Source: Thiohalobacter thiocyanaticus (GTDB taxonomy: Bacteria > Pseudomonadota > Gammaproteobacteria > Thiohalobacterales > Thiohalobacteraceae). Taken from it: a stretch of 64,000 bases of DNA. Position 1 is the stretch's first letter. Each line of letters opens with the position of its first letter. The stretch covers positions 682,001 through 746,000 of the forward strand of contig NZ_AP018052.1 of the NCBI RefSeq assembly GCF_002356355.1. Direction: 5' to 3'. Made by a program: the position numbers and the translations under genes. This document shows, one piece after another, positions 58,932 to 63,721 of this stretch. The notes beneath the pieces are model-generated. The model did no database searches and had not been told where the DNA came from. It was given only the letters and a program-made list of their open reading frames with translations.

Positions 58932-59438
58932 TCACTCACCCGGCGGGGGTGACGGGAAGCGCGCGTAGGCCGTGGCCGGTTCCTGGTCCGGGGGGACGTA
59001 GGCCGGTGCCGGCTCGCCCGGCTCGCCCAGAGAGCGGATGTAGTGATACAGCGCCCGCAGGTCATCCTCTTCCATGATGTTGAGATTGAACCAGGGCATG
59101 GGCGGGCGCCGGCGCAGGGTCCGGGCATCCCGGATCCATTCCTCCTCGCTCAGGTTCTGCAGGTACAGGCGCAGATTGGAGCCGTAGGTGGTGCCCCAGG
59201 GGCCGCGCCAGCCGAAGTTGTCGCCGGTCAGCCACAGCGTTTCCGGCACCTGCCCGCCCGACATGAAGTAGCCGGGCGTGTGGCAGTCGTTGCAGCTGGC
59301 AACCTGGGCCAGATAGCGCCCGCGCTGGATGAGATCGTCGGGATCGCGTTCCTGGGCCCGGCCGGCAAGCGGAAGGGCCAGGCCGGCGGCCAGGGTGAAC
59401 AGGCCTGCAGCCGTGCAGGCACGCTTCAGGGTTTTCAT
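58932..59438 (-). CDS. Cytochrome c family protein
   Basis: 168 residues, signal peptide (ACTAAGLFTLAAGLALPLAGRAQ). One heme site: CNDCH (Cys49, Cys52, His53), axial Met114 in RRPPMPWFN. SGGQVPETLWLTGDN and WGTTYGSNLRLYL resemble cytochromes associated with alcohol/aldehyde dehydrogenase complexes or gene pairs. No dehydrogenase is adjacent. It lies between the HlyD-adaptor gene and a fragment of a related adaptor. Confidence 0.9.
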   Translation of the reverse strand: MKTLKRACTAAGLFTLAAGLALPLAGRAQERDPDDLIQRGRYLAQVASCNDCHTPGYFMSGGQVPETLWLTGDNFGWRGPWGTTYGSNLRLYLQNLSEEEWIRDARTLRRRPPMPWFNLNIMEEDDLRALYHYIRSLGEPGEPAPAYVPPDQEPATAYARFPSPPPGE

Positions 59439-61592: not shown

Positions 61593-63527
61593 TCAGTAGA
61601 CCTCGTGCGCCGTGTTGTGGACGTTGAACTTCCCGGTCGGCGTGGTCAGGCCCTCAATGCGGTCGATCTCGGTCAGGGTCTGGCTGTCCAGGATGACGGT
61701 GGCGCCATCCTGTGCCCAGTCAGAGACCCATACCTCGGAACCGTCCTGATTGAACTCGAAGTGCACCGCCCGGCCCTGCGTGGCGACATCGAAGCAGCGG
61801 TCGATCACGGCGTCGGCCTTGGAGTAGGCGCAGACCTGGCGATGCGAACTGCCGTCCGAGCTCAGGGTCATGTCGATCAGCACCCAGGGCGTGTTCGGGT
61901 GGGTCTTGACGAACAACGAGCCGGCCGAGGGCAGTTCGATCTTGCGCACCACCTGCCAGGCGTATTCCGGGTGTGCCTGGGGATCGGCGCCGTAGATCGC
62001 CAGGGTGTTCTCGCCGATGTGCGGTGTGGCATTGACCCAGCCGTACACCGGATCCTCCCAGTTGGCGCCGCGGCCCGGATGCGGCGTAGCACCGGTGGTG
62101 AAGCTGGCGGCCAGGGCGCGCTCACTGACGTCCACGACCACCATTTTGTCACTGGCATTGGCGGCGACCATGAAATAGCGTCCGCTATGATCCCAGCCCC
62201 CGTCATGCAGGAAGCGCTCAGTGGCGATCGAGGCTACCAGCGGGAAGTCCGGCTGCGAGTAGTCCACAATGCCGACGTAGCCGCTTTCCTTCAGCGAGAT
62301 CACCCAGGTGGGCTCGAAGGGCGAGGCGACGATGGAGGCCACGCGGTTCTCCGGCAGGGTGTCGCCGTCGATGCTGGTCATCGGCAGGTCCACCCGCGCC
62401 AGCGGTTCCAGGGTCAGGCCGTCGAAGGTGACGTACTGGGGCGGCCAGTAGCAGCCCTCGATCAGGTACTGTTCCTCGTAGCCGGTGAACTTGCTGCCGT
62501 CCACGCTGCGGGCGTCGTGGCAACCCTTCACCGTGGCGACCACGGCCGGCTCGCTGCTCCACAGGTCGATCAGCGAAACCAGGCCGTCGCGGCCGATCGC
62601 GTAGTAGTAACGTCCGGAGGACGAGGAACGCAGGATGTGCACGGCGAAGCCGACGTCCAGACGCGCCACCTCCTCGTGGCTGTCGCCGTCGAAGATCGCA
62701 ATCTGTCCCGCATCCCGCAGTACCACGCCGAAGAAGTTTTCCCAGTTGCGTTCATGCTCCGGTTCGGTGGGCCGGTCGGCGACCGGTACGCTGAGATTCC
62801 AGCTGGCCTGAATGTCTTCCATCGGCAGGGCCGGCGGCTCGGGCGGGGGTTGCTGCAGGTAGGCGGCGAGCAGGGTGATGTCCTCTTCGGTGAGCAGGCC
62901 GCTGTCACCGAAATCGGGCATGCCGCCCGCGCTGCCGTAGCGCATCAGCGCGCCGAGCCCGTCCGTGCCGATCCACTCGGAGCGCGTCACGCCGATATCC
63001 GGTCCGGTGGCGCCGGTGCGATACAGGCCGTGGCAGCCGGCGCAGCGATCGAAGTAGGTATTCATGGCGTGGCTGAACTCGCCCTCGCTCAGTTCCGCCG
63101 GCGCGGTATGTTCCAGCGGGCCGAGTACGTCCTGGGCGGTGAAGAATGCCAGCAGGTCGTCTATCTGCGATTGCGTCAGTTCGAAATCCGGCATCACGTA
63201 ACCCCACTCCTGCAACAATCGACGGCCATAGCCGGTATAGGTCGTGGCCCATTCGGGGTCGGTGAGAAACCGGCTGGTCCAGCCGTCGTTCAGTTTGCGC
63301 TCGGCAAGATCGGGGCCGAAATGATCGCCATGACCAAAAGTGTGACAGCCGCTGCAGCTGTGGCGGAACAGCGCCTCGCCCGCCGTCGGGTCGCCCCTGT
63401 CGTCGCCGGCGCCGCCGGGTCCGGGGCCGGGGCCGCGGCCGGCTTCGGCGATGCCCAGCGACAATGACAGGCCGAGCAGTAAGGGGATGCTTGCTGTGCG
63501 GGGTGTTAGTTGTCTGTGCTTCATCAT
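61593..63527 (-). CDS. nirS: Cytochrome cd1 nitrite reductase-like protein with an extra N-terminal c domain
   Basis: 644 residues from tandem ATG 63527/63524 with signal peptide (PLLLGLSLSLGIAEA). Two c-type domains precede the d1 propeller: CSGCH (58-62; Met112) and CAGCH (162-166; Met203). The d1 domain keeps the proximal-type His297 (GFAVHILR) and both distal pocket histidines of NirS, His441 (FLHDGGWD) and His483 (TPHPGRGANW), spaced 42 residues as in Pseudomonas NirS. The end (PTGKFNVHNTAHEVY) is NirS-like. It should reduce nitrite to NO in the periplasm using heme d1. Canonical NirS has one c domain. No d1-biosynthesis genes (nirF, D/L/G/H, J) are in the window. Confidence 0.88.
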   Translation of the reverse strand: MMKHRQLTPRTASIPLLLGLSLSLGIAEAGRGPGPGPGGAGDDRGDPTAGEALFRHSCSGCHTFGHGDHFGPDLAERKLNDGWTSRFLTDPEWATTYTGYGRRLLQEWGYVMPDFELTQSQIDDLLAFFTAQDVLGPLEHTAPAELSEGEFSHAMNTYFDRCAGCHGLYRTGATGPDIGVTRSEWIGTDGLGALMRYGSAGGMPDFGDSGLLTEEDITLLAAYLQQPPPEPPALPMEDIQASWNLSVPVADRPTEPEHERNWENFFGVVLRDAGQIAIFDGDSHEEVARLDVGFAVHILRSSSSGRYYYAIGRDGLVSLIDLWSSEPAVVATVKGCHDARSVDGSKFTGYEEQYLIEGCYWPPQYVTFDGLTLEPLARVDLPMTSIDGDTLPENRVASIVASPFEPTWVISLKESGYVGIVDYSQPDFPLVASIATERFLHDGGWDHSGRYFMVAANASDKMVVVDVSERALAASFTTGATPHPGRGANWEDPVYGWVNATPHIGENTLAIYGADPQAHPEYAWQVVRKIELPSAGSLFVKTHPNTPWVLIDMTLSSDGSSHRQVCAYSKADAVIDRCFDVATQGRAVHFEFNQDGSEVWVSDWAQDGATVILDSQTLTEIDRIEGLTTPTGKFNVHNTAHEVY

Positions 63528-63705: not shown

Positions 63706-63721
63706 TTTGACCAAGGTCAAA
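63706..63721 (-). promoter_or_regulatory. FNR/DNR-type box for the cd1 gene
   Basis: TTTGACC-AA-GGTCAAA has perfect 7-bp arms (core TTGAC-N4-GTCAA). If a -10 CCTAAT at 63684-63679 is used, the transcription start is near 63672 and the box centre is at -41.5, the class-II activator position. Anaerobic or NO-dependent activation of the nitrite reductase is inferred. The leader would be about 144 nt. Confidence 0.65.

Follow-up and report, generated by a model that had tools for sequence, protein, structure and literature searches.

The 64,000-nucleotide stretch of the Thiohalobacter thiocyanaticus genome analysed here (the window) encodes, at positions 61593..63527 of the minus strand (stop codon included; 644 aa), a genuine cd1-type nitrite reductase with an additional class-I cytochrome c domain ahead of the c and d1 domains of NirS. 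We consider it likely that this second NirS of the genome is a periplasmic, NO-forming heme-d1 enzyme in which the extra N-terminal c domain acts as an electron relay. The gene was delineated from its ORF, Pfam matches, alignment to PDB entries and an AlphaFold2 model; it starts with an ATG at 63527, eight bases after a Shine-Dalgarno sequence (AGGAGG, 63541-63536). Residues 1-29 (MMKHRQ...LGIAEA; 63441..63527, minus strand) form a predicted signal peptide followed by a Gly/Pro-rich linker, and the protein, as judged by eye from this segment, would be secreted to the periplasm. The extra domain spans residues ∼44-135 (63123..63398, minus strand; Pfam Cytochrom_C 49-128, E 7e-12), with the heme motif CSGCH at residues 58-62 and with His62 and Met112 as presumed heme ligands. 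It is followed by the ordinary NirS cytochrome c domain at residues ∼145-228 (62844..63095, minus strand; Pfam Cytochrome_CBB3 156-224, E 3e-19; alignment to 1bl9), with CAGCH at 162-166 and Met203, and by the eight-bladed heme d1 propeller at residues 261-644 (61596..62747, minus strand; Pfam Cytochrom_D1 261-639, E 3e-101; 1bl9 alignment; fold match 1dy7). The Pfam matches thus bear out the sequence-only reading, which had placed a full class-I domain with CSGCH and Met112 before the NirS c-d1 unit.

Alignment to Pseudomonas aeruginosa NirS (1bl9) pairs His166, Met203, His297, His441 and His483 with His51, Met88, His182, His327 and His369 of that enzyme. His297 is the proximal d1 ligand and His441 and His483 are the distal histidines, separated by exactly the 42 residues that had been remarked on from the sequence; their columns are the positions mutated to alanine in 1hzu and 1hzv. 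The AlphaFold2 model has a mean pLDDT of 89 and a pTM of 0.85, with residues 1-42 below pLDDT 50. Its d1 domain superimposes on 1dy7 at 1.2 Å over 413 residues; because this comparison covered little beyond residues 142-644, the extra domain was classed by sequence profile.

In an alignment of 41 multi-c relatives, every sequence has the extra-domain CxxCH and Met (41/41), indicating that the domain is not there by chance, and the catalytic d1 histidines are retained in 40. The domain could instead be structural or targeting, serving as a membrane anchor or for docking (e.g., to NO reductase) with its heme off the electron path. Many relatives do look like lipoproteins or bear Ig/cadherin-like extensions, and P. 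aeruginosa NirS has been solved in complex with NO reductase (5guw), but invariant heme ligands are more than a plain anchor would require, and we regard a role of this kind as quite unlikely. In the one sequence that departs from the catalytic pattern, Asp, Phe and Tyr replace the three d1 histidines; this row is probably L095:1554-3659, a long-branch myxobacterial paralog that is perhaps a non-catalytic relative. Four cysteines of the d1 domain (C336, C359, C566 and C578; window positions 61794-62522) are likewise invariant in all 41 multi-c NirS sequences. P. aeruginosa NirS differs in having no Cys at these positions, and the four additional residues may form disulfides between propeller strands.

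The genome (3.23 Mb, one contig) contains four D1-domain genes. Three of them, encoding a canonical NirS (596 aa), NirF and NirN, belong to a main cluster outside the window, in which nirS-E-C-F-D-L-G-H-J-N is complete and is followed by norCB (genes named from similarity and their order); the gene at 61593-63527 is the fourth. The look beyond the window that the sequence-only reading had called for therefore recovered both nirC and the d1-biosynthesis genes (nirE, F, D, L, G, H, J and N). The second NirS is 47% identical to the canonical NirS of its own genome and 31% identical to its own NirN, which has Asp at the position of His441. A tree of 112 sequences built on the shared c-d1 core places it deep inside NirS, with a very long branch leading to NirN. 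NirN, the dihydro-heme d1 dehydrogenase (6rtd), has the same c domain and d1 propeller fold, but is only 27-31% identical, lacks an equivalent of His441 and is encoded by a separate gene in this genome. Identity as NirN or NirF was ruled out by the tree and by His441, and with the identities and the full set of catalytic hallmarks the protein is assigned to NirS. Canonical NirS enzymes (P. aeruginosa 1nir/1bl9, Paracoccus 1aof) share with it the c domain, the d1 propeller and the catalytic residues at 44-45% identity over 500 residues, and differ in having an N-terminal arm where it has an extra heme-c domain. The catalytic residues placed on solved structures, the tree position, neighboring d1 genes in relatives and an upstream FNR/DNR box (see below) all point to a nitrite reductase; by homology and gene context, nitrite reduction by the second NirS is well supported, and T. 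thiocyanaticus is likely to be an autotrophic denitrifier.

It had been proposed from the sequence that the protein might be a NirC-NirS fusion that feeds electrons internally and makes a soluble donor unnecessary; on such a reading, a captured NirC at the N terminus would do the job of NirC. NirC and the extra domain are alike in being small class-I c domains, and the main cluster has nirC close to nirS, but an intact, separate nirC (104 aa, CGSCH) is present beside the canonical nirS, and of the c domains compared the extra domain ranks with those least like NirC. Its profile scores are 58 against C2 of its own clade, 56 against cA, 52 against canonical C2 and 50 against Chloroflexi C1; NirC (33) and the NirN c domain (30) give the lowest, and every other c domain in the comparison falls between 49 and 58. 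The NirC profile itself is closest to the c domains of canonical NirS and NirN, against which it scores 79-86. A NirC origin was therefore rejected on the profile scores and the separate nirC, and we hold a NirC fusion to be very improbable. The best solved match in profile searches is the SCO1-fused cytochrome 2l4d (E 2.7e-24), and other best solved relatives are the cytochrome c 3cp5 from Rhodothermus marinus and 6btm, subunit A of alternative complex III. By this profile similarity, the nearest solved relatives of the extra domain are electron-transfer domains. An external reductant is still needed despite the extra heme, which may only alter which donor serves.

The distribution of the architecture was examined in two scans. 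Among 369 genomes of the class, 73 had a match, yielding 78 NirS-type frames. Most NirS conform to the single c domain that had been taken as canonical, but nine of the 78 frames carry an extra c domain of some kind. Only four of the 78, including the gene at 61593-63527, belong to the clade of the second NirS; its three companions there, L009-L011, each contain three CxxCH motifs. In a wider scan limited to one genome per species (80 loci), the second NirS fell inside a clade of 56 sequences (SH-aLRT 100, c-d1 core tree); two or three c hemes are present in 49 of these. Whether the extra domain is common in the NirS family, the condition under which the sequence-only reading would fall, thus has a mixed answer: most canonical NirS lack it, but 49 of the 56 members of one deep multi-phylum clade have it. 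Clade members come from Pseudomonadota, Myxococcota, Acidobacteriota, Gemmatimonadota, Acidimicrobiia and MAGs labelled Sulfurovum; many of the records are MAGs, for which single taxon labels may be wrong, and the spread over several phyla is robust in that it extends across many independent assemblies. Seven clade entries have a single c heme: L055, L062 and L085 look like fragments, L080 appears to have one, and the Acidobacteriota L082-L084 truly have one, which means that these proteins can do without the extra heme.

Three c hemes before d1 (cA-cB-c-d1) were seen in L009-L011, L042-L044, L048-L052, L054, L056, L057 and L106. L048 has N-terminal Ig/cadherin-like domains and several other three-heme members have long N-terminal extensions, which are unusual for a denitrification enzyme.

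Extra c domains have joined NirS at least three times independently. A C1-C2-NirS layout was reported in 2022 and described by its authors as exclusive to Chloroflexi (PMC8756737). The domain order c-c-d1 is thus already known, and the claim that it is confined to Chloroflexi is contradicted by the present clade. The Chloroflexi protein (PMC8756737; clade 1g of PMC10999283) has the same order of extra c, NirS c and d1, but it belongs to another NirS branch, outside the 56-member clade and among single-c relatives, and its extra domain shows just a distant similarity (score 50). Forcing the two fusions into a common clade costs 131 units of log likelihood (AU p 1.3e-15), and common ancestry was rejected on the c-d1 core. 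A third type, with an N-terminal cytochrome on canonical NirS, is present in four gammaproteobacterial genomes (L025, L028, L147 and L162 in G167, G342, G332 and G326, respectively). The extra domain of L028 finds its best match in the cytochrome tethered to three-domain copper nitrite reductase (E ∼2e-31), and those of L025, L147 and L162 align with it; yet another c domain is found on the NirS of L168. One type of donor domain is therefore joined to two unrelated nitrite reductases, N-terminally on NirS and C-terminally on three-domain NirK. The Ralstonia pickettii three-domain NirK (3ziy; PMC13324648) resembles the second NirS as a works-like analogy, in that a nitrite reductase carries a donor cytochrome as a fused domain, and differs in its unrelated core enzyme, its C-terminal fusion and its cytochrome, which is of the type found on the L025 and L028 NirS. 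Addition of an N-terminal cytochrome to NirS is thus a repeated event that is established across many phyla and has a counterpart in the tethered domains found on copper nitrite reductases.

A NirS phylogeny with 15 clades has been described (PMC10999283); its clade 1f includes Myxococcota and may correspond to the 56-member clade. In the open-access literature searched, no description of the extra heme of this clade outside Chloroflexi and no biochemistry for any clade member were found. Against that literature, the broad separate clade, its members with three hemes, the separate origins of the fusions and the donor domain common to NirS and NirK appear to be new.

Gene neighborhoods bear on whether the second NirS might have drifted to a different function (chemistry on NO or O2, or a part in NO signalling) that the extra heme serves. 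In the Gammaproteobacteria checked, the multi-heme nirS is an orphan gene, a second copy beside another NirS; an Rrf2/NsrR-like regulator gene lies nearby in Acidimicrobiia and Gemmatimonadota; and one relative, as noted above, has none of the three d1 histidines. These features would suit a drifted function, but the catalytic residues are all conserved in 40/41 sequences, and in Acidobacteriota and Myxococcota the gene sits within a nir locus with the d1-biosynthesis genes nirF, nirJ and nirD/L/G/H-like genes, as in L065, where a NirJ-like radical SAM gene directly follows the multi-heme nirS and precedes NirF. In several phyla, moreover, the multi-heme NirS is the only NirS found, and in five Acidimicrobiia genomes it is the sole D1-domain gene. 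A drifted function is on this evidence unlikely. Two further genes, one of heme-copper oxidase type and one for a cytochrome b, are found near the multi-heme nirS in L065, L069 and L086, lending support to nitrite reduction with an electron relay as the best explanation.

The conservation of the extra-domain ligands (41/41) and of the catalytic histidines (40/41), together with at least three independent additions, one of them of the type tethered to NirK, suggests that the extra heme-c domain is probably a built-in electron relay. Electrons from an external donor would enter at the extra-domain heme c (His62/Met112) and be handed on first to the heme c of the usual NirS domain (His166/Met203) and then to heme d1 (His297); there, nitrite would bind near His441 and His483 and be reduced to NO. 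In taking the place of the short N-terminal arm of canonical NirS, the extra domain would shift the donor docking site, probably as an adaptation to a partner not of the NirM/NirC type, either a cytochrome or a membrane complex, and the relay heme would fix where electrons enter. Counting against a relay are the Acidobacteriota members L082-L084, with their one c heme, and the orphan status of the second copy in the Gammaproteobacteria checked may point to a specialised function. In tethered NirK, the roles of the fused cytochrome are complex and the enzyme turns over more slowly than unfused ones (PMC13324648), so a fused cytochrome need not simply speed electron delivery. More tentatively, and with somewhat less than even confidence, we suggest that the multi-heme proteins make up an unnamed multi-phylum class (two or three hemes c plus d1) of wired nitrite reductases drawing on an electron source unlike that of canonical NirS, e.g., a membrane cytochrome b complex, and acting as an isoenzyme beside canonical NirS in Gammaproteobacteria. 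For annotation, genomes with a multi-heme nirS may encode two NirS isoenzymes that draw on different electron donors; NirS proteins with one, two and three hemes c are natural test systems for the electron path to heme d1.

In T. thiocyanaticus, the second isoenzyme would obtain heme d1 by way of the main nir cluster and may be switched on by an FNR/DNR-type regulator. A palindrome of this type, TTGACCTTGGTCAA (63707..63720, minus strand), lies 193 nt upstream of the ATG, between nirS and cbbL. Similar boxes precede the nirS and norC of the main cluster, with a chance density of ∼0.01 per 300 bp, and one is present 194 nt upstream of the 93% identical ortholog L038. Among all fetched loci, a conserved upstream FNR/DNR box was found, besides that of the second nirS, only in L038 and L053, with a weaker AT-rich match in L099.

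A RuBisCO/carboxysome operon (cbbL, cbbS, csoS2) is divergent from the second nirS, with the cbbL start at 64193 (L005:6194), just beyond the window; the divergent nirS/cbbLS arrangement is also present in L038. A secreted monoheme cytochrome c (168 residues, CNDCH; 58932-59438, minus strand) is encoded 2.2 kb downstream of the second nirS and is a possible candidate donor. A second type of single-c NirS, recognized by the motifs HDGF/HDGY and HPGPGAN, was seen in L163, L165, L167, L170-L172 and L175-L192, from G336, G098, G099 and other genomes; it co-occurs with the multi-heme NirS in those three, and both distal histidines are kept in the members aligned.
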